Both the position numbers and the translations under genes were made by a program. Under the pieces are notes generated by a model that searched no databases, was not told the origin of the DNA, and saw only the letters and a program-made list of their open reading frames with translations. From Kiritimatiellia bacterium (GTDB taxonomy: Bacteria; Verrucomicrobiota; Kiritimatiellia; CAIVKH01), in assembly GCA_027493775.1 (NCBI GenBank), contig JAOSKE010000004.1, forward strand, positions 62,001 through 126,000: DNA of 64,000 bases, in the 5' to 3' direction. Below are positions 26,102-36,759 of the stretch, piece by piece (position 1 is the stretch's first letter; every line of letters begins with the position of its first letter).

Positions 26102-27464
26102 CTAAATCGGAACCGCACCAAGTCCCAGGGCGCAGCGCCGAAAGCGATGTTTCCAAGGATAATCCTCGGCCAGCTCAATCACGATTCGCCGGGCCGTCTC
26201 CTTGACCCGAACCGCAACCTTCAGCAAACAAGTGCGCAGCGTATCCATTTGCGAACGAAGCTCGCCGCCCTTCCACGAGGAGGCCAAGCCCTGAACAAGC
26301 GTCAGCGCAACCAACGAAAGAATCGCTCGAAACTGGTTGGCGCTGGCCCGAGAGCAAGAAAAAGCGACCCAAGGCCGCATCGTGCTTAAGTTCCTTGATA
26401 CTATTCTCCATGTCCGAATGTCCGTAGTACCGTCCAAAACCGTGCTTCGGACTGCTCGTACCCGTCGTGACCAGATAGCGAACATTGTCCCGTGGCGCCT
26501 TCTCAAGAGCATGAACCACCTCAACTTTACAGAGTACCCGCCGTGGGCGGCTCCACCTCTTCGCGCGATATAAAGTGTCGAGGTAGAAGGTGACCGTCTC
26601 CTGGTCGCGTGTCGCCAGCTCGCGCACCACCTCCAGCGCTTCTTTCATTTCACGCGCCAACACGCCATTGGAGGCGACTCCTATATCGTAGCCGATACGC
26701 TGCTGGTCAAGCCAGTCGAGCAAGTCGGATCGAGCAAACGCGCTGTCCGCGCGCAGCCAGAGATGGCTTTTGCGCCAGAGCGTCTTCAGGCGAGGGATCA
26801 AGCGGCGAAGAACGGGCAAAACACCCTGCATGGCGTCCGCATTGCCTGGGCGCAAGAGCAGTACGAGCGGATATTTGCGAGGATCAGCGTCGAATGAAAT
26901 GGTGAAGACCAAGGGCAGATAGCACCACGTATCATAGTATCCATTGAAGAGGGTCAGTTGCTGTGCGCCGTAGGTGGGAGTGCAGGTGGGATCTACATCC
27001 ATCCATATTCGCCGCGGAGCGCGGTGACGCTTTTGCAGCAACGCGAGCAAGGCATCAATGAACGCAGAACTCATCCGATATAAATCGGAGGCGCTGGCGG
27101 TATTTTCAAAGCGCGAGAGCGTGGGTTGACTGGCGAGAGCCGAATCGTCAAGGGAGCGTCCGCAGGCGAGCTTGAACATCGGGTCATTGGCCAGGGCGGC
27201 GGCTTGGTTGGTATCTGCATAGCCTGCGGCCAGAGCAAAGATGCGTTGCTGGAGTTGGCTGAGCAGCGAGTGCTCGACCTTTGCAGCGTCTCGGCGATCC
27301 AGGATGGCATCGGCCAAACGCGGACAAAGATTCATCTTCCGGTCACGCGCCTTGAGGAGCAAAAGGCCGCCATCACTGGAGAGGCGCTGGTCGGAGAATT
27401 TGACGTGAAGAGGCTTGTGAAAAAGTTCTGGAAAAAGAAAACAGTCTGTGCAAGTATCAGGCAT
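26102..27464 (-). CDS. IS1380-family transposase, one frameshift
   Basis: DDE transposase of about 453 residues when joined. The N-terminal SSDGGLLLLKARDRK, then IWMDVDPTCTPTYGAQQLTL, HLWLRADSAFARSDLLDWL and GHSDMENSIKELKHDAALGR are family signatures holding the acidic triad. A T5 run (26351-26355 region) reads one base too long. With T4 the protein continues SCSRASANQFRAILSLVALT and ends at 26102. If the extra T is real, the transposase is inactive; if it is error, the element may be active. Confidence 0.88.
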
Positions 27465-27649: not shown

Positions 27650-28777
27650 ATGAGTAGAGGAATTCCATTGATGGAGACCAATTCGCCTTGGCGGGGGGTG
27701 ATTGACCTCGCGCGGCGGGCGTATCCGGGGTTTGTGTTTGGCGGCGCTGTGGATGCGGCGATTCTGCCGGTGTTTCATTTCCACGGAGTGACAAAGGAGT
27801 ATCTCGAACCGCACTTTGCCTACTTGCGCGAGAATGGTTACCGCACGGTCTCGGCGGACGAGGTCGCACACTTTGTACGTACGGGGAAGCAGCCGGGCGA
27901 AAAGGCGGTGGCGCTGAATTTCGATGATGCGTGGGCGAGTTCGTGGACGGTGGCGACTCCGCTTCTGCGCCAATACGGATTGTTGGCTACGGTCTTCGTC
28001 GTGCCGGGGCGGGTGCCGAAGGATGATATTTTGCGACCATCCATCACCGATGCGGATGGCGCATCGCGCGACGTGGATCGCTCGGCGGTTCCCTTCGCGA
28101 CCTGGCCTGAATTGCGAGCGATGCAGGGGACGGGGGTGTGGGATATTCAGGCGCACACGTTTGCGCACGCAATGGTTTTCAGCGATGACGCGCGCCTGGG
28201 ATTCGTCACGCCGGACTACAAACCGCACATTCACAATGCGCCGAATGTCGGAAAGCCAACTGAGCCGCATTTCTTATCCGCCTCCGATTTGGGCGCGCCG
28301 CTGTACGGGGCGCGATCGAGAATGTCGGACGTGTTGCGCTACGATGATCCCGATATGCGGAAGCGGTGCCTCGACGCGGTGCAGGCGGGCGGCGGCGCGG
28401 CCTTTTTGAGGATCCGCGCTGGCAGCCGAAATTGAAGAAAATCGCCGGGAAAATGAACGGAAAATTTGAGAGCACCGCCGCGCGCGCGGCGGCGATTCGC
28501 GAAGATTTAATCGCCGCGCGCGAGACGCTTCATGCCAAGCTGCGAACGAACACGGTGAAGCATATCTGTTTTCCGTGGGCGATTGCGGGAAATGTTGCGG
28601 AAGAGATCGCGAGCGAGGTCGGGTACGAGTCGGCATACGCGGATACGCTGGGCGGGCTGCATGCGGCGGTGCGCGGTGGCAATCCGTACCGGATCATGCG
28701 ATTGAAACATCAGTTTATATTTTCACTGCCCGGTCGCGGCGCGCAGATCGTGGTGGAATATATTTGGAAAACGTTGA
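27650..28777 (+). CDS. Polysaccharide deacetylase family protein, frameshifted
   Basis: NodB-type domain: an early VFHFHGVTKEYLEPHFAYLR, the metal-binding motif VALNFDDAWAS (about residue 85), then DIQAHTFAHAM, and a late KHICFPWAIAG. A T5 run near 28402-28406 seems one T short; with T6 the frame passes from GGGAAF into EDPRWQPKLKKIAGKM. After VVEYIWK the frame runs into panC, so a second small error near the A4 at 28768 is likely, giving the TGA at 28775-28777, 7 bp before panC. An in-frame ATG at 27671 with GAGG ten bases upstream is an alternative start. Probably acts on envelope glycans. Confidence 0.7.
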
Positions 28778-28784
28778 GGTCGCC

Positions 28785-29636
28785 ATGGAGATTATTCGAG
28801 ATCCAATCGAGATGCAGGAATGGGGAATTGCGTATCGGCAGAACGAGGAAAGCATCGGACTTGTGCCGACGATGGGGTATTTGCATGCTGGACATTTGTC
28901 GTTGATAAGAATGGCGCGCGACCGCGCGGACAAGGTCGTCGTGAGTATCTTCGTGAACCCGACTCAGTTTGGTCCGAACGAGGATTTTTCCAGCTACCCG
29001 CGCGACTGGGCGCACGATGAGCGCCTCTGCATCGGGGCAGGGGTGGATATTCTTTTTGCGCCGGATGTGGCCTCAATGTACGCGAAGGATGCGACGGTGC
29101 AGGTGCTGGAAAACAGTATGTCAAAAGGGCTGTGCGGCAAATCGCGACCAGGCCATTTCGATGGCGTTTGCACGGTTGTGACGAAGCTGTTCAACCTCAC
29201 GCAGCCTTCCTTCGCGGTATTCGGCGAAAAGGATGGGCAGCAGTTGCGAATCATCCGCCGCTTGGTTCGCGATTTGAATATCCCGGTAAAAATTTTATCC
29301 GGCCCGATCATCCGCGAAGCCGACGGCCTCGCAATGAGCTCGCGCAACGCACGTTTGACGCCCGATGAGCGACGCCAAGCCGTTTGCTTACGCCGCAGTC
29401 TGGACGCAGTCGAAGAGTCATTCGCCAAAGGGGAGCGCAGCGTAAATGCATTGACTGCAGCAGCCCGCGAAGTAATCGCACGCGCCCCGCTTGCAGCACT
29501 GGACTACGTCGAAATTGTGGACGACGAAACGTTGGCAGCGGTCGCCGAAATAGAGCGACCTGCCCTTTGCGCGTTGGCCGTCAATTTTCCGTCCGCGCGC
29601 TTGATTGACAACGTCGTGCTGCGTCCGCGAGATTAA
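28785..29636 (+). CDS. panC: Pantothenate synthetase
   Basis: ATP-dependent ligase joining pantoate and beta-alanine in coenzyme A synthesis, 283 residues. The ATG at 28785 follows GAGG at about 6 bp. The HIGH-type motif is in VPTMGYLHAGHLSLI, followed by VVVSIFVNPTQFGPNEDF; later FGEKDGQQLRIIRRLV and the KMSKS-like MSSRNARLTPDERRQA are canonical. panB and panD are not in the window. Confidence 0.96.
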   Translation: MEIIRDPIEMQEWGIAYRQNEESIGLVPTMGYLHAGHLSLIRMARDRADKVVVSIFVNPTQFGPNEDFSSYPRDWAHDERLCIGAGVDILFAPDVASMYAKDATVQVLENSMSKGLCGKSRPGHFDGVCTVVTKLFNLTQPSFAVFGEKDGQQLRIIRRLVRDLNIPVKILSGPIIREADGLAMSSRNARLTPDERRQAVCLRRSLDAVEESFAKGERSVNALTAAAREVIARAPLAALDYVEIVDDETLAAVAEIERPALCALAVNFPSARLIDNVVLRPRD

Positions 29637-29640
29637 AAAC

Positions 29641-29687
29641 TTCCAAGCCTTGGAAGTCGCGCACGAAGGGGTTTCCAAGCGTTGGAA
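29641..29687. repeat. Paired TTCCAA-N3-TTGGAA palindromes, copy 1
   Basis: Two 15-bp palindromes, TTCCAAGCCTTGGAA (29641-29655) and TTCCAAGCGTTGGAA (29673-29687), start exactly 32 bp apart just after panC. A second pair with the same spacing lies at 35400-35446. Each could form a short hairpin or bind a dimeric protein. Confidence 0.8.
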
Positions 29688-29715
29688 ATTTTAGATGCGC
29701 ATCTGTGCGCGGCCC

Positions 29716-29745
29716 GCCGGGTGAGAACAAATCTTCCTACCCGGC
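29716..29745. terminator. Possible bidirectional hairpin between convergent genes
   Basis: GCCGGGT (29716-29722) pairs with ACCCGGC (29739-29745) across a 16-base loop. It sits between panC and the convergent secreted-protein gene, where a terminator is expected, but no T run follows on either strand. Low confidence. Confidence 0.35.
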
Positions 29746-29762
29746 GTGGTCGGCCGCGGGAT

Positions 29763-30413
29763 TTACTCGCCGAAGTTAAGGAACTCGTAGTCGCCGGAGC
29801 TTTCCGTGGCTCCGCCGGAATCGGTGTTTGCGGGAGCTGACGAGACTACTTCAAGGGAGGCATCGTCTATTTGGAGCGAGCCTGCGCTGCTCACGCCGGA
29901 TGCGAGGAAAACGGCGCGAACCCATTCGGTGCCTTCGGGCGCGGTGGCGGTGAGGGAGATTTCTTTCCAGTCCTCGCCGACGCCCTCAATTTTTTGCACG
30001 CTGGAGCCGAGCATTTGCGAGCGATCCCAGTTCCAGAATTCGAGCTTCATTTCCTGTGTTTGCGGATTCCACATGGAGTCGGCCCAGAACCAGGCAGAGA
30101 GGCGATACGTTCGGCCTGGTTGCCCTTCGACCTCCTGCCATACGCCGCCGTTGTCGCCCATATCCACCCACAGTCCGCGAATGGCCATGATGAAGGAGCC
30201 GTCTTTTGCGCGCCAGTTTTCGCGGCCCGCGTTGCCCCATGCATCGCCGTGGTCGTCGGGATCGTTCATCTTCCAATTTTGTGCGAAGGCGTAAGAGGCC
30301 GAACTTTCGGCCTCGAAGCTGCCGTTCGAAAGAAGGTTCGCCGCCTGAGCGGAGGCGGCAAATGCGACAGCGCCGACGGCGGTTAGTATGCTCTTGCGAA
30401 GAGGTAAGGTCAT
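29763..30413 (-). CDS. Secreted carbohydrate-binding-like (CBM4/9 fold) protein
   Basis: A 216-residue protein. The signal peptide ends SAQA before ANLLSNGSFEAESSASY, the usual N-terminal strand of CBM_4_9/galactose-binding jelly-roll domains. The rest matches that fold: WQEVEGQPGRTYRLSAWFWA, ending SLQIDDASLEV. After about residue 190 there is a short Ser/Gly-rich tail. No catalytic domain is attached, so it may be a lectin or an accessory surface protein. Divergent from yhcH. Confidence 0.75.
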   Translation of the reverse strand: MTLPLRKSILTAVGAVAFAASAQAANLLSNGSFEAESSASYAFAQNWKMNDPDDHGDAWGNAGRENWRAKDGSFIMAIRGLWVDMGDNGGVWQEVEGQPGRTYRLSAWFWADSMWNPQTQEMKLEFWNWDRSQMLGSSVQKIEGVGEDWKEISLTATAPEGTEWVRAVFLASGVSSAGSLQIDDASLEVVSSAPANTDSGGATESSGDYEFLNFGE

Positions 30414-30510
30414 AACGCAAACTCCTGATAAAGTGAGTGCAGATTAACAGATTGCGGATTGGATTCAAGAATTTGCGCGCAGTCCGAGTTGCGTTTTTAA
30501 AGGCTTACCT

Positions 30511-30956
30511 ATGATTGTGGCCAAGTTGGAAGATTGCGGACGGTTTCTACATTTGCACCCCGGCTTCGCGGCCGCGTTCCGATTCCTGCAGGAAGAGGAG
30601 TTGGCTGCGCTCCCGGCAGGGCGGCGCGAGTTGGTTGCGGATAAGCTGTATGTAAATGTGGATCATGTTGACGGGCGGCGGCGCGAGGGAGCCGTGCTCG
30701 AAATTCATAAAAAGTTTATTGATATTCAGTACACGGTCTCCGGCGCGGAGGTGATGGGCTGGCGCGATTTTGCATCATGCGCGAATTGGCGCGAGCCGTT
30801 TGACGAGACGCGGGACATTGGTTTTCTGAACGACCAACCGTTCTCGTGGTTTTCCGTGCCGCCCGGCTACTTCGCCATCTTCTTCCCGGAGGATGCCCAC
30901 GCGCCGCTTGCAGGGAGGGGGCGTTGCGCAAAGTGATTATGAAAGTCGCGGTGTAG
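30511..30956 (+). CDS. YhcH/YjgK/YiaL (DUF386) family protein, frameshift near the end
   Basis: Cupin-like protein of about 148 residues. Family motifs: LEIHKKFIDIQYTVSGAEVM and, near the end, FAIFFPEDAHAP. A GGGAGGGGG tract at 30912-30920 breaks the frame; correcting it gives ALRKVIMKVAV and a TAG at 30954-30956, which matches the conserved C-terminal strand of the family. Members such as YhcH act in sugar (sialic acid or anomer) metabolism, and the metal-binding residues are present. No sugar catabolic genes are adjacent. Confidence 0.82.
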
Positions 30957-30980
30957 GCCCTCGTTGCACGTTGGCCTAGG

Positions 30981-31757
30981 CTAGAGCGTATAGACTTCGA
31001 AGAGGCGCTTTTCGGTCGTGCCTTCTTCCATTTCCGCAACGACCTCGACGAGTTGCGCGATGGTCGAGTTCTTCAGCTTGTGCTTGAGTAGATTGTCGAG
31101 CTGGAAGATGCCGGCGGAATTGGAGAGCGTGACCGCGATACGAACTGGGCGGTGTTCGCCCTTCTCGATTTTTACGTCTTTCACGCCGAGCGCAGAAATG
31201 GAGTGAATGTTGATTTGTCCGGCTTGGAACGGAATGCGCGAGCGGCCCTGCGTCATATCCGTCGTGTCGGCGACTTTGAGCGCTCCGGCTTCAATGGTGA
31301 GGCAGCGCTGGTCGGCATCGTGCGCGATGATCGCGTGCAGCACGTCTTGTGTGACGATTGTGAGTTCCGGCTCCTGATAAATGTTTGCCAGAAGCTGGCG
31401 GCATTTCGGGTAGGCGATCCACAGGCTGTATTTTTCGTGATCGTCGCGGTGTACGCTGATTCCAACATCGTGCAGCGCAGCGGCGAGAACGACGACGACC
31501 TCCGCGTCATCGTTGGTCATTTTATGATTTTCGACAATGCTTGGTGCGACACCACCTGCGATGAGAAGCCGCAAAATTTTCAGTGCGGCGTTGGCAACGA
31601 TGCGAATATGAACCTCGCCGTGGTCGCTGATTCCCGCGCGATCAACCGCGTTGATGTTCGCGCTTTTCCAGAGCTGATTGATTTCAGGGTCGGCCTGAAT
31701 ATTTTCGATGAGAGTTTTGAGTTTTGCGTTCTCGTGGACAGGTACTTTGAAGCTCAT
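30981..31757 (-). CDS. HD-domain phosphohydrolase
   Basis: A 258-residue soluble protein. HD-superfamily metal motifs are visible: SDHGEVHIRIVANAALKIL, then AAALHDVGISVHRDDHEKYS with the HD pair, then HAIIAHDADQRCLTIEAGAL and KVADTTDMTQGRSRIPF. The closing third is a beta-rich domain that I do not recognise. Substrate unknown; HD proteins often cleave nucleotides or phosphoesters. It lies downstream of the zinc-ribbon and methyltransferase genes on the same strand, separated by 65 bp, and could belong to that operon. Confidence 0.82.
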   Translation of the reverse strand: MSFKVPVHENAKLKTLIENIQADPEINQLWKSANINAVDRAGISDHGEVHIRIVANAALKILRLLIAGGVAPSIVENHKMTNDDAEVVVVLAAALHDVGISVHRDDHEKYSLWIAYPKCRQLLANIYQEPELTIVTQDVLHAIIAHDADQRCLTIEAGALKVADTTDMTQGRSRIPFQAGQINIHSISALGVKDVKIEKGEHRPVRIAVTLSNSAGIFQLDNLLKHKLKNSTIAQLVEVVAEMEEGTTEKRLFEVYTL

Positions 31758-31822
31758 GGGGGTATGCTAGTGCGACTCGCGTTTTGCGACAATGCAGAAA
31801 TATCCGTCTTTGGAGTCTTGTT

Positions 31823-32068
31823 TTAGGCGCGAAGTCGGCGTCGCGACGGCGTTTTCTGTGTCGCTGCAGCCTTGTTTAGCGTCATTTGGGTCGCGAGCGA
31901 TGGTGCGCGGGCCTCGCGTTGACCGAGGGAAGTTGCGCATTGCTGACAGCGGATGTCGTAGATTTCCGCGTTGGGCAGAACGAGGAGGAGCCGTTCATAC
32001 ACCGGCTGGGAGCAGCGGCATTTTGGGCAGTACAGCTCTGAAGCGGAAAATTTTTCAAACTGATTCAT
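31823..32068 (-). CDS. Small zinc-ribbon-like protein
   Basis: From the ATG at 32068 the 81-residue protein begins MNQFEKFSASELYCPKCRCS and continues to DIRCQQCATSLGQ. Two CxxC pairs about 28 residues apart form a likely zinc ribbon. The C-terminal half is basic and low in complexity. It overlaps the 3' end of the methyltransferase gene by 14 bp, so the two are translationally coupled. I do not recognise a family; a role as nucleic-acid-binding partner of the methyltransferase is inference. Confidence 0.65.
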   Translation of the reverse strand: MNQFEKFSASELYCPKCRCSQPVYERLLLVLPNAEIYDIRCQQCATSLGQREARAPSLATQMTLNKAAATQKTPSRRRLRA

Positions 32069-33083
32069 CGTCAATCGCTCGCTCCAATATCGCACGCGCG
32101 GTGCGGTAGTCCAGTCTGCGGCGTCGCTTTCCCGCCTTGGTATTTCCTTTGAATGGTGAAAGCGCGAGGTCGGCGGTTTTCTTGCGGTGCGTGGCCAAGA
32201 GGCGGTTCGCGTTTGCGATGACTGCGTCGGTCCGTGAATCGGGCACGTCCTGAAGTTCAATAAAAGTGATGAGGCGGGAGCTGATCTTAATTTTTTCGGA
32301 CGGATAGTCGGATTCTTCCCGCCTCATAAATGCGATGGGTTTATCGCCGCCGGGCAAGTCCACCGCCCGCAGCGCGATGCGCCCGGATTGCGCATTGAAA
32401 ATGATTCGCTTGTCTTTGCGCGAACATAGCCGCGCCCGCTCCAACGCTGCGAGTGAGAGGATCGGGCGCTCGCCGACGTAGAGCATTGGGCCGTTTTGTG
32501 GTGGGGCGATTTGCCGGTCAATGCAAACGACGCAGACGGGGCAGTCGGTGTCGTCGAATGGGTTTTGCTCCAGTACGGTGATGCTCGTGAAGTGCGTTTT
32601 GGGGTAGGCGCTGTTGATGATGGTTTCCGGTACGATTGCGACGGTGTAGGGACAGGCGGCCTGGCAACGGTCGAGGGCGAGTTGGTAGAGGTCGCGACGC
32701 TGTTTGTAGTGTCGCGCGACGTTGGCGTGAACCCCTTTGCGCCGGGCGCTGTGCTCGGCGAGGTAGGGGGGATTCGTGACGATTAGCGCGTCGTCGAGTT
32801 TGGGAATATGGTCAAGGCTGTCGTTGTGTGCCCAGCCTGTGCGCGGGTCAATATCCAGTCCCTTGATTTTCCCGCCGACAGCCGTGCGCGCGGCGCGGAG
32901 CAAGTCGCCGTGCCCGGCGAAGGGATCGAAGAGGATAGCGGGTTGGCGGGAGCGGATGAACTCAAGGACGACGGGAGTTAGCCACGCTTCACCGCGGGTC
33001 TGAAACTGACCGAGCGAAGTTTTGACAACGTCTATTTCTTTGAAGCGTCCCTTCTCGCGGGAGATGAGCATCCGAGCGCACAT
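32055..33083 (-). CDS. DNA adenine-N6 methyltransferase-like protein
   Basis: A 342-residue protein. Motif I is FDPFAGHGDLLRAA (AdoMet binding) and the catalytic motif IV is IVTNPPYLAEHSARRKG, which indicates an amino-methyltransferase acting on adenine (cytosine N4 is not excluded). The upstream KTSLGQFQTRGEAWLTPVV looks like motif X. The second half should hold target recognition. No restriction endonuclease is recognisable next to it, so it is either an orphan enzyme or part of an unrecognised module with the coupled zinc-ribbon gene. An ATG at 33071 is an alternative start. Confidence 0.82.
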   Translation of the reverse strand: MCARMLISREKGRFKEIDVVKTSLGQFQTRGEAWLTPVVLEFIRSRQPAILFDPFAGHGDLLRAARTAVGGKIKGLDIDPRTGWAHNDSLDHIPKLDDALIVTNPPYLAEHSARRKGVHANVARHYKQRRDLYQLALDRCQAACPYTVAIVPETIINSAYPKTHFTSITVLEQNPFDDTDCPVCVVCIDRQIAPPQNGPMLYVGERPILSLAALERARLCSRKDKRIIFNAQSGRIALRAVDLPGGDKPIAFMRREESDYPSEKIKISSRLITFIELQDVPDSRTDAVIANANRLLATHRKKTADLALSPFKGNTKAGKRRRRLDYRTARAILERAIDDESV

Positions 33084-33154
33084 AGTGAAACCTATGCGCG
33101 ACGATACGGCAGAACGTGGATTACGACAAGGTGCGCGAATTTTCGGGCCGCGCG

Positions 33155-33942
33155 TTATTGGCCCTGACGTGACTCACTGCCTCCGTGCTGTCCCTGCCAG
33201 CCCTGCGCACCGCCTCCGCGGGGGCCTCGCCCGCCACCGCGCATCGAGTGCCACACGTCGGTATCCACAAATGACCAGAGATTGAAACCGTCGCCACTCG
33301 TGTTTGTGCGCCAGTCTGTGGGCATGTTTCGGTCGAGTTCGTCGTAGGTCAGGGAAAGAGCTGTTCCGAATTCTTTCATCATTCGAGCGCGCGCTTCGGA
33401 GCGGGAGATTTTTCCGGACTCGGCAGCCTCGCGCCAGACTTGAGCCTGCTCATTCAGGCGCATGTTCATGGCCGCGACCAGAACGTCGAAACGCACAGCC
33501 TGCGCATCCGATAGTTTTGCGTGTTCGACAAAGTTAGAGCGAATCGTTGCCTTGCGGATTTCCCCTTCGATACGTCGCCGTTCAGCCCACGCTTCGCGGT
33601 TCGCCTCCCACTGCTCGCGGTTGGTCACCGAAGTTCGATCCCACGTCTGGCGTCGTTCTTCCCTGTTCAGCCGCTCGTTTGCAGGGACTTCCCGAGGTGG
33701 GGCCGGGGGTGTTTCGGTCGGCTCGTCCCATGAAAGCGTGTCCTGCCACACTTCGGCATCCGGTTCGGATGTGCGTGTAGAAGCAGGTTGTTTTAGCGAA
33801 GCGTGTTGGACTTCTGGGAGGGGGCTGCGACTGCCGGAACAGATTCCGGTGTAGGCGTCATCACTCGCTGAGTGAACATCCCACTGACAAGCCCCGCGCC
33901 AAAGACAAGGACTCCGACACCGATAGAATATTTTGAGATCAT
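33155..33942 (-). CDS. Membrane-anchored Arg/Glu-rich protein, one frameshift
   Basis: The ATG at 33942 gives MISKYSIGVGVLVFGAGLVS, a single N-terminal helix. The frame is broken at a C5 run (G5, about 33831-33835); joining there gives PAVAAP-LPEVQHASLKQPAS and a Pro-rich linker. A charged helical domain follows (NREQWEANREAWAERRRIEG, then KLSDAQAVRFDVLVAAMNMR), and the end is a Gly/Gln-rich tail. About 262 residues. I do not recognise it; the helical part resembles periplasmic stress or metal sensors of the Spy/CnrR kind only in general composition. Confidence 0.6.
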
Positions 33943-34136
33943 TTTTGAAAAACGGATCGCTGGTTGAGTTTATTGCACCGCGAGAAGGTTAATTTTTTGG
34001 CTGGGAGTGAACAATGCTAAATGTGCAGAGCGTGTGGTGCGGCGAAGTGAGGGATGATCTGCTGGCGCTGAACTTATGGCGGGTCGTTCCTTTGCGCACA
34101 TTGTCCGAGATCAATTGCCCTTCTCACTAGGGGCGA

Positions 34137-34973
34137 CTACAGGCCAACTCGTGAAAGGGGCCAATAGATTCGGGTGACGCGACCGACGATTTGGGACTCG
34201 GAAATCGGGCCGTAATAGCGGCTGTCGAGACTGCTTTCGGTGTTGTCGCCTAGTACCAGATACTGATTTTCACCGAGAACGATCTTGTCTTCGGGCTGTG
34301 ACAAAACGCTGGGGAGACGTGGCATTGTGTGTGCGAGGACAAATCCATTCGCATGTTCGGAAAGGGTGGTGAAGATAGCTGGTTCCTTGATGATCTCGCC
34401 GTTCACCACTAGGTGAGGAGATTGAATCCGAATCGATTCTCTTGGAAGCCCGGCGATACGTTTTATGTAAAAGACGCCGGATTTAAGGGCGGGATAATTC
34501 AATCCATCGGTAGATAACAGGACCATGTCACCACGTTTGGGCTTTGAGAAGCGGTACGTCACTCGTTCCGCCATTACACGATCACCGGGTATGAGGGTCG
34601 GCAACATGGATTCTGTTGAGATTAGATACGGGCGCACGATGAGGTCGCTGATGTATTGCCATCCGATGTTTGAAATAATAACGAGAACGATGACGCCAAT
34701 CCAACCGGAGAGTCGGAAGCGTGGGAGCGGGCGATAGGACTGCTTGAGCATAAGAACCCAAAGAGCAACGGAGGCAAGTAGTAGCGCACTGGCGGCGATA
34801 AAACTGCCGGTGCCTGGAAGCGCGAGAATTAGAAGTCCGCTGGTCCCGGTTAGTGAAATTCCAAAGTACCACTTAAGCGCGGCCCGTGTATCGCCCGCAA
34901 TAAAGTGTGCAGACCCACTCAGCAATAAGCCGAAGATCGCACCCACCCACTTCGGATAGCGCCGCTCATCCAT
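34137..34973 (-). CDS. lepB: Signal peptidase I with extra N-terminal membrane domain
   Basis: S26 leader peptidase that removes signal peptides. The catalytic Ser is in STESMLPTLIPGDRV and the general-base Lys in FYIKRIAGLPRESIRI; the late box is YLVLGDNTESSLDSRYYGPI. The ATG at 34973 (MDERRYPKWVGAIFGLLLSG) gives 278 residues. The first 110 residues form about four helices before the usual anchor, an addition not present in the E. coli type. Transcribed alone; upstream is repeat-rich DNA. Confidence 0.92.
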   Translation of the reverse strand: MDERRYPKWVGAIFGLLLSGSAHFIAGDTRAALKWYFGISLTGTSGLLILALPGTGSFIAASALLLASVALWVLMLKQSYRPLPRFRLSGWIGVIVLVIISNIGWQYISDLIVRPYLISTESMLPTLIPGDRVMAERVTYRFSKPKRGDMVLLSTDGLNYPALKSGVFYIKRIAGLPRESIRIQSPHLVVNGEIIKEPAIFTTLSEHANGFVLAHTMPRLPSVLSQPEDKIVLGENQYLVLGDNTESSLDSRYYGPISESQIVGRVTRIYWPLSRVGL

Positions 34974-35300
34974 GTGGGCTATTCTGGCTGTTTCGGGGCG
35001 ATTTATCCAGCGCAAATTTCTTGGGATACAGGAATCCTGTTGTTCCCGATTGAGTTGTGGAGGGTAGGGCGCGACTGCTAGGTGCGCCGCAGGGGTTGTG
35101 GGGTTCACAACCCAAAGGTTGACAGTAACCCGATTCGGAACAGCTCGACAAATCGTGAACAACAATCCGCCCTCAACGCGTCCGCCTTCGCCGGAGGCTA
35201 TGGCGTGACGGAGGCGGCTACAGAGATCGCAGCGAACTGTAAGCGCTTAGTTTGATGAATTTTAACCACGAATGGACTCGAATTGTAATTTCTGAAGGCA

Positions 35301-35373
35301 GGGCGCGCCGCAGGAGTTGTAGGCCTCACACCTGCCACCTACAGGAAGGTTGCGCACGGGCCCAAAATTTCGC
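35301..35373 (+). repeat. 73-bp dispersed repeat, copy 1
   Basis: This 73-bp block (GGGCGCGCCGCAGGAGTTGT ... AAAATTTCGC) is identical by eye to 46064-46136. It can fold through TGTAGG and CCTACA. The copy at 46 kb ends exactly where an IS3 element begins. Confidence 0.85.
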
Positions 35374-35399
35374 CCCAAATCAATCCCGATTAACCGCAT

Positions 35400-35446
35400 T
35401 TCCAACCCTTGGAACTCGCTTTGTGACACATTTCCAACCGTTGGAA
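35400..35446. repeat. Paired TTCCAA-N3-TTGGAA palindromes, copy 2
   Basis: TTCCAACCCTTGGAA (35400-35414) and TTCCAACCGTTGGAA (35432-35446) start exactly 32 bp apart, as in the pair after panC (29641-29687), although the 17-bp spacers differ in sequence. Confidence 0.8.
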
Positions 35447-35810
35447 GTGGTTTGGTATTAACGACAAAAACCACAAAAGACACAAAACGCATGGCGTATG
35501 ACGTGGAAGATTTTTAACCACGGAAATGCGCGGAATTTCGCGGAAAGGGATTGGGATAGAGGGAACGGGATGTTTGTCCTGTAGCCGCGGGCGCTGACCG
35601 CGGGGGGGGATTTAAGACCGCCCTCAACGCGGGCGGCTACAGAGGGGCGAGATTAAGCCTTTCAACCACGGAAAGGCGCGGAAGGACGCAGAAGGCAAAC
35701 CGTCGTGTGGTTCCCGATTTCGCTGTCACTGGTAGGGCGCGACTGCCAGGCGCGCCGCAGGGGGTGAGAGGTTCACATCCGAAGGAAATAATCCAAGTTG
35801 AGGGACCGGG

Positions 35811-36759
35811 CTAACTGGGCCAGAGGTGGGTGAGGTAGGCGGCGTAGAGGAGGAGGAGGAGTGCGCCAGCCCAGCGGGAGAGGGTGTGGCGGGGGAGCAT
35901 GAGGGGGAGGAGGAGAATGGCGAAGCCGCTCATCACTGTGAAGTCGGCGGTGGTGACGCCGCCAGTGGAGAGGGGATGGATAAGTCCGGCCGTGCCGAGG
36001 ATGGCGAGTAAATTAAAAATGTTAGAGCCGATGATGTTCCCTACCGCGATGTCGTGTTTCTTGCGAAGTGAGGCGACTACGGAGGTGACGAGCTCGGGAA
36101 GACTGGTGCCGGCGGCGACGATGGTTAGTCCGATGACGGCTTCGCTTACGCCGAGTTTGCGGGCGACTTGAAGGGAGCCTTCGACAAATAAATGGGCGCC
36201 ATAGACGAGGAAGGCCAAGCCAACGGCAATGAACAGAACATCCCAAACAACGAAGCGCAGTTTTAGTGGTTCGGCCCGGTTTTGAGCTTTTTCCGTGGAG
36301 ATAGATTTTGGCCTGCGAGCGATGATCACGCTCAGTGTGACGTAGGCGATGATGCCGAGGAGGAGTAGGACGGCTTCGGGGCGGGAGAGGGTGCGATTGA
36401 GGAGGAGTACGCTGCAAAGGAGTGTGACGCCGATCATAATCGGCGTGTCCAAGCGCAGGAGTTGTCGGTTGACGGCAAGGGGTCGGATCAGCGCGGTTAT
36501 GCCGAGAATGGCGGCGATGTTGAAGATGTTTGATCCGACGACGTTGCCGACTGCGATTCCGTTTTGTCCGACGAGCGAGGCTTTGATGCTGACGACAAGC
36601 TCAGGGGCGCTGGTGCCGAATGCTACGACGGTGAAGCCCGACGACAAGCGGGGTGATGCCAAGTCGCAGGGCGAGGCGGGAGCTGCCATGCACAAGCGCT
36701 TCCGCGCCGAAGTAGAGCAAGAGGAGGCCGCCGAGCAAGAATAGGGTGATCGCAAGCAT
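35811..36759 (-). CDS. Na+/Ca2+ exchanger family (CaCA) antiporter, one frameshift
   Basis: Integral membrane cation exchanger of about 315 residues with 10 helices. The two alpha repeats are clear: TVVAFGTSAPELVVSIKASL then GNVVGSNIFNIAAILG, and GLTIVAAGTSLPELVTSVVA then GNIIGSNIFNLLAILG. The ATG at 36759 gives MLAITLFLLGGLLLLYFGAE. One base too many near 36634-36640 (within GVTPLVVG/GFTVVAFG-type sequence) breaks the frame. Resembles E. coli YrbG. Acts in the inner membrane, most likely extruding Ca2+. Confidence 0.88.

Follow-up and report, generated by a model that had tools for sequence, protein, structure and literature searches.

The window analysed here is a 64-kb stretch of contig JAOSKE010000004.1 (assembly GCA_027493775.1, positions 62,001 to 126,000) from a Kiritimatiellia bacterium, and the element in question is a 15-bp palindrome, TTCCAAN3TTGGAA, that occurs in it as two tandem pairs. 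As stated in the original prediction, four exact copies are present (29641, 29673, 35400 and 35432) with a start-to-start distance of 32 bp within each pair. They are the only exact copies in the window. By chance, a first-order Markov model of the 64-kb sequence would yield 0.005 exact sites; for exact pairs at 32 bp its expectation is about 4e-10. Pair 1 is located in a gap between convergent genes and pair 2 in a long gap running from a signal peptidase gene to a sodium/calcium exchanger gene. The features of the two loci, the last two of which lie outside the element, are as follows.

29636..29640, no strand: outer A-tract frame of pair 1, AAAAC (the outer AAAA carries about 4 bits in the genome of the window)
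29641..29655, no strand: pair 1, palindrome 1, TTCCAAGCCTTGGAA, exact match, 5 bp past the panC stop codon (TAA, 29634-29636)
29656..29672, no strand: pair 1, variable spacer of 17 bp, GTCGCGCACGAAGGGGT
29673..29687, no strand: pair 1, palindrome 2, TTCCAAGCGTTGGAA, exact match
29688..29692, no strand: outer T-tract frame of pair 1, ATTTT
35400..35414, no strand: pair 2, palindrome 1, TTCCAACCCTTGGAA, exact match
35415..35431, no strand: pair 2, variable spacer of 17 bp, CTCGCTTTGTGACACAT
35432..35446, no strand: pair 2, palindrome 2, TTCCAACCGTTGGAA, exact match
28764..29636, plus strand: panC, pantoate-beta-alanine ligase (Pfam PF02569), upstream of pair 1
35811..36689, minus strand: sodium/calcium exchanger gene (Pfam PF01699), its 3' end facing pair 2

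The genome from which the window comes (G000; G002 is a congener, G004 belongs to the same family, further G-codes are other genomes and L-codes are stretches) comprises 3.2 Mb on five contigs and was found to hold 186 exact sites, with none for the reversed-pattern control. These form 87 exact pairs at 32 bp, or 103 when up to two mismatches are allowed (control zero). Stretches of G000 totalling about 500 kb were examined in detail, and there pairing is obligatory: all 105 exact sites have a partner 31–33 bp away, 102 of the partners being exact and the rest differing by one mismatch, and single sites are practically absent. The spacing is equally fixed, with nearest neighbours at 32 bp, rarely 31 or 33, and at no other value up to 300 bp. 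An untargeted sample of G004 gave a similar picture, in that 112 of 113 sites were partnered with up to two mismatches, most partners being exact or one mismatch away, and the nearest-neighbour spacings were 32 (43 times), 33 (six times), 64 (twice) and 256 bp (once). The genome-wide spacing plot proposed in the original prediction therefore yielded a very sharp 32-bp peak made up of intergenic elements, and not the mostly single or randomly spaced copies that were held to speak against a site. Longer arrays advance in steps of 31–33 bp, so that an element consists of two and sometimes three to six palindromes. Three helical turns correspond to 31.5 bp, and the spacings seen (30–33 bp, with multiples near 63–64 and 95–96 bp) all lie near a multiple of 10.5 bp, as same-face phasing expects.

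The G000 unit can be written as AAAAn-TTCCAAnnnTTGGAA-GTC-n11-GAC-TTCCAAnnnTTGGAA-nTTTT, spanning 57 bp beyond which the information content falls to background. Its AAAA...TTTT frame surrounds many G000 pairs and is missing from pair 2 of the window. Since the flanking tracts vary between genomes (in G000 the pair is followed by TTTT, whereas in G013 and G040 every palindrome has AAAA behind it), the shared core is reduced to the palindromes and the distance between them. The centre base of the palindrome is nearly always G or C, and the centre triplet differs between genomes, being mostly GGG/CCC and GGC/GCC in G000 and TSA in G004; the two centres of a pair are co-oriented in G000 (38 versus 11) and G002 (20 versus 2) but not in G004. 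The spacers had been described in the original prediction as lacking clear shared sequence, which holds insofar as most G000 spacers are unrelated between elements, with few shared copies, and fails at their ends, which in G000 are usually GTC at the start and GAC at the close. At four places in G000 (L171:4351, L220:4689, L233:4344 and L234:4146) a second palindrome, AATTCGGAC-N-TCCGAATT, abuts the element.

The element occurs class-wide. A loose scan for TTCCA-N5-TGGAA present twice at a distance of 30–33 bp detected pairs in 45 of 97 Kiritimatiellia genomes, with 1 to 1,349 pairs each and zero in every control. All eight members searched of the window's Genome Taxonomy Database (GTDB) family are carriers (4 to 1,349 pairs), and several other families of Kiritimatiellia gave zero pairs in the same scan. 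Of 289 genomes sampled across the phylum, 24 contained the exact pair, all of them Kiritimatiellia; none of about 190 genomes from other classes of the phylum had it. The matches listed all come from metagenome-assembled genomes (MAGs), labelled Kiritimatiellia, Kiritimatiellales, Pontiellaceae, Lentisphaerae, Verrucomicrobia, PVC group or uncultured bacterium. The lone viral match in the collection is an exact pair on IMG/VR contig UViG_3300035670_001097 (L165:7669-7715); on this phage-like contig it sits within an open frame of about 7.6 kb, with a chance expectation far below one.

Orthologous gaps between G000 and G002 were then compared, using gene calls from a simple in-house hexamer model and reciprocal best hits, whose median identity was about 70%. 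A pair was present in the same G002 gap for four of the seven G000 elements having orthologous flanks, and in the same G000 gap for all four such G002 elements. Across the four shared gaps, 95 of 96 palindrome positions are identical, against only 3–10 of 17 in each spacer. Neutral DNA of equal age would not have retained the 24 palindrome positions of a gap next to a randomised spacer, and the gaps are therefore direct evidence that two palindromes, and the distance between them, are under selection. This selection is purifying and acts on the palindromes and their spacing, with the spacer sequence exempt. In a MAG whose flanking proteins are 62–65% identical to those of G000, the element likewise occupies the same gap, there as a four-site array (L101, L221). 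A copy within coding sequence, in a phosphopantetheinyl-transferase-like gene, recurs in two MAGs (L163:2824 and L059:1461) whose proteins are 68% identical. The pairs of the window, in turn, are missing from G002, where the gap corresponding to that of panC measures 17 bp and region 15000-54999 of contig C1 holds no exact pair; elements are hence both gained and lost, although the comparison yielded no empty-site junction. The element is real, widespread and selected, and it is undescribed in the open-licence literature searched, in which no paper joining Kiritimatiellia with palindromic or extragenic repeats was found.

With respect to genomic placement, 43 of 48 G000 elements are intergenic, though coding sequence makes up 83% of the DNA. 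In G004 the convergent, divergent and tandem gaps are used 9, 10 and 36 times, against 8.9, 10.1 and 35.9 expected from their base pairs, whereas G000 shows a mild excess in convergent gaps (17 versus 9.9 expected). The elements are not tied to promoters or to terminators. Their spacing along contig C1 (1.4 Mb) is Poisson-like, with a coefficient of variation of 0.91 against 0.96 expected, and regularly spaced or regionally confined chromosome sites were rejected on this ground. Neighbouring genes, judged by eye from their sequences, are housekeeping genes with no common theme; together with the neutral use of gaps, this counts against a classical regulon and also, once several genomes are compared, against termination. 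In the window itself, the gap holding pair 2 (35065-35760) is rich in other dispersed short repeats, among them TAGGGCGCGACTGC.AGG.GCGCCGCAG, with copies at 35065 and 35733, and TTTAACCACGRA, with copies at 35261 and 35513. Elsewhere in the window an insertion sequence (IS)-type DDE transposase is encoded on the minus strand (26175-27464; PF13701, DDE_Tnp_1_4); the match ends at residue 365 of 429 and spans 345 of 435 profile positions, and the end of the gene may be frameshifted or diverged.

Whether the palindromes act as double-stranded DNA or as RNA hairpins was judged from their substitutions. In one-mismatch partner sites the change is one-sided in 84 of 84 cases, and the CC/GG core takes only 15 of 146 mismatches. 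In the four genomes tested, the flanking bases showed no more pairing than after shuffling, and no covariation; extended hairpins were rejected on this ground, and the structured RNA allowed for in the original prediction is disfavoured for the same reason. The element has no Rfam match, the sole Rfam match in the window being a tRNA. One-sided changes, a spared core, flanks lacking covariation and the 30–33-bp spacing together favour a double-stranded protein site over a hairpin, and among the three options of the original prediction (protein assembly, recombination site or structured RNA) the protein site is the preferred one.

We consider it quite probable, from the conservation and geometry of the sites, that the element is a paired protein site. 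The reading we favour overall, and hold to be somewhat better than an even bet, is a cooperative paired dimer site served by an architectural or global binder. The element would be a double-stranded site in which three helical turns separate the centres of 15-bp palindromes; such a distance would place two protein dimers side by side on one DNA face, where they could bind cooperatively. The 32-bp peak and the orthologous gaps lend support to the original prediction of selection for a bound assembly in which two dimers share one face. Cooperative binding at paired dimer sites of this kind is the favoured description of how the element may work. The protein, presumed to bind as a dimer of dimers, would be a lineage-specific global or architectural DNA-binding protein, and the putative binder would mark or bridge intergenic DNA instead of regulating a defined gene set; we accordingly prefer a protein of this type to the regulator of a classical regulon. 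An architectural role taken alone is possible, at rather less than even chances. A shade more tentatively, many Kiritimatiellia may possess an undescribed chromosome-architecture or boundary system in which paired dimers occupy hundreds of intergenic tandem palindromes, the core drifting with the protein between genera.

Several observations weigh against this reading. Clustering of 490 neighbour proteins revealed no recurrent regulator, binder candidate or autoregulated gene, and a copy number that ranges more than 300-fold within one family is hardly what an essential architectural role would lead one to expect. The geometry also allows exceptions: in G003 the core is TTCCAT-N3-ATGGAA, with spacings of 16 and 32 bp. 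Two-mismatch sites are symmetric in 4 of 19 cases against 0.6 expected, as a hairpin would also give, and RNA folds beat their shuffles (z-scores of -1.6 to -4.2), though those of any palindrome would. Lastly, the sample of shared gaps is small, with seven and four gaps. If the cooperative paired dimer site is nonetheless correct, up to 1,349 pairs per genome would imply an abundant DNA-binding protein and an undescribed cellular process in the class. The core shift between genera would amount to a natural experiment in protein–DNA co-evolution, and the fixed geometry makes the element directly testable by biochemistry.

The alternative that survives best, although we regard it as unlikely, is a REPIN-like miniature mobile element, in which the pair is recognised and copied in trans by a transposase; mobility would be confined to intact copies, which would account for the conservation of the palindromes. 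REPINs are over-represented extragenic doublets with a random distribution (PMC3116915), and the present elements are likewise obligatory extragenic doublets, as in REPIN and REP-RAYT systems, that exist in hundreds of copies with Poisson-like placement along the chromosome. Copy number differs greatly between relatives, tandem amplification has occurred in G021 and G044, and some spacers are shared between copies. In one case a four-copy family (L227:2862, L229:4556, L232:4653 and L235:4407) is embedded in a longer dispersed repeat that extends over at least 200 bp, and its members share about 200 bp of flank; in the L235 copy the similarity of the left flank ends on reaching the first palindrome, which may mark a recombination joint. 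Orthologous copies with perfect palindromes and saturated spacers are, however, unexpected of immobile neutral copies. Moreover, each palindrome is symmetric and the spacing is fixed to within 1–2 bp, whereas REP dimer spacers are mostly 20–100 bp (PMC3733652). The flank profiles contain no GTAG/CGTC tag, showing A/T tracts or GTC/GAC instead. A RAYT transposase as the mover was rejected: the RAYT-type Y1 transposase (PF01797) is absent from carriers G021, G034, G039 and G050, genomes that are incomplete (87–96%), although incompleteness is unlikely to explain every one of the four absences, and RAYT presence showed no association with the element among 58 genomes (Fisher p 0.52). Dispersed palindromic doublets, by way of caution, need not be RAYT-driven REPINs. 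As copies come and go within a genus, the paired site would nevertheless also have a dispersal route, whether by copying or by de novo gain, with copies gained and lost on the time scale of a genus.

It is improbable, in our estimate, that a conventional cooperative transcription factor, such as an NtrC-like enhancer-binding protein acting at a distance, uses the elements as paired operators. The attraction of this proposal is its geometry, since the two palindromes to which NtrC dimers bind at the glnA enhancer likewise have their centres 32 bp apart. Sigma-54-like (-24/-12) promoters near the elements were, however, no commoner than expected (1, 0 and 0 found versus 0.6, 0.4 and 1.5), and a sigma-54 enhancer was therefore rejected. 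Convergent gaps, which contain no promoters, hold elements as often as expected or more; the neighbours lack a functional theme, and one genome contains 1,349 pairs.

A bidirectional intrinsic transcription terminator, consisting of two hairpins at gene ends with a T-tract outward of each, seems to us more doubtful still. The AAAA...TTTT frame and the convergent-gap excess of G000 (17 versus 9.9) would fit it, as would RNA folds better than shuffles (z-scores of -1.6 to -4.2) and two sites that match a terminator pattern. Yet divergent gaps in G004 are used as expected (10 versus 10.1), A and not T follows each palindrome in G013 and G040, the stems are not extended by covariation, and a terminator would need no second hairpin and no partner at a constant 32 bp. 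A hairpin with a T-tract was not the general pattern at gene 3' ends, being suggestive in G000 alone. Least probable of all is a dif-, matS- or parS-like site for site-specific recombination or for the replication and segregation machinery, since such sites, to which a palindromic, class-restricted element conserved in place bears some resemblance, are usually few or limited to one chromosomal region, whereas this one has tens to more than 1,000 copies, which along a 1.4-Mb contig are Poisson-spaced, neither clustered nor regular.

The element belongs to none of the known families tested, and its resemblances to them are partial. The enhancer pair upstream of glnA, bound cooperatively by NtrC, shares with it two palindromic dimer sites whose centres are 32 bp, or three turns, apart; NtrC enhancers, however, number one or a few per genome and stand beside sigma-54 promoters, whereas this element is present in hundreds of copies with no such promoters. 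The matS/MatP, NBS/Noc and parS/ParB systems also rely on short palindromes that dedicated proteins recognise genome-wide, with no regulon, but those sites work as single units, with several tens of copies at most and often a regional distribution, while the present sites are obligatorily paired and uniformly distributed. CRISPR arrays similarly combine palindromic repeats, unrelated spacers and regular spacing, in contrast to which the repeats here are 15 bp long, usually two per unit, at hundreds of dispersed loci and with partly patterned spacers (GTC...GAC); unique CRISPR-like spacers were rejected because several spacers recur as copies. As a separate observation, G002 contains very many palindrome pairs at a distance of 61 bp (119; L269-L288, L329-L348), which probably constitute a CRISPR array. 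Finally, the REP/REPIN and BIME families (Pseudomonas fluorescens, E. coli and the GTAG repeats of Opitutus terrae) resemble the element in being short palindromes in hundreds of copies, mostly extragenic doublets of near-random placement whose copy number varies among relatives (PMC3116915, PMC3733652). The palindromes described here differ from these in being perfect and symmetric, with no GTAG/CGTC tag or RAYT link, and in combining a fixed spacing of 30–33 bp and unconserved spacers with palindromes that are kept at orthologous places where the spacers have diverged.

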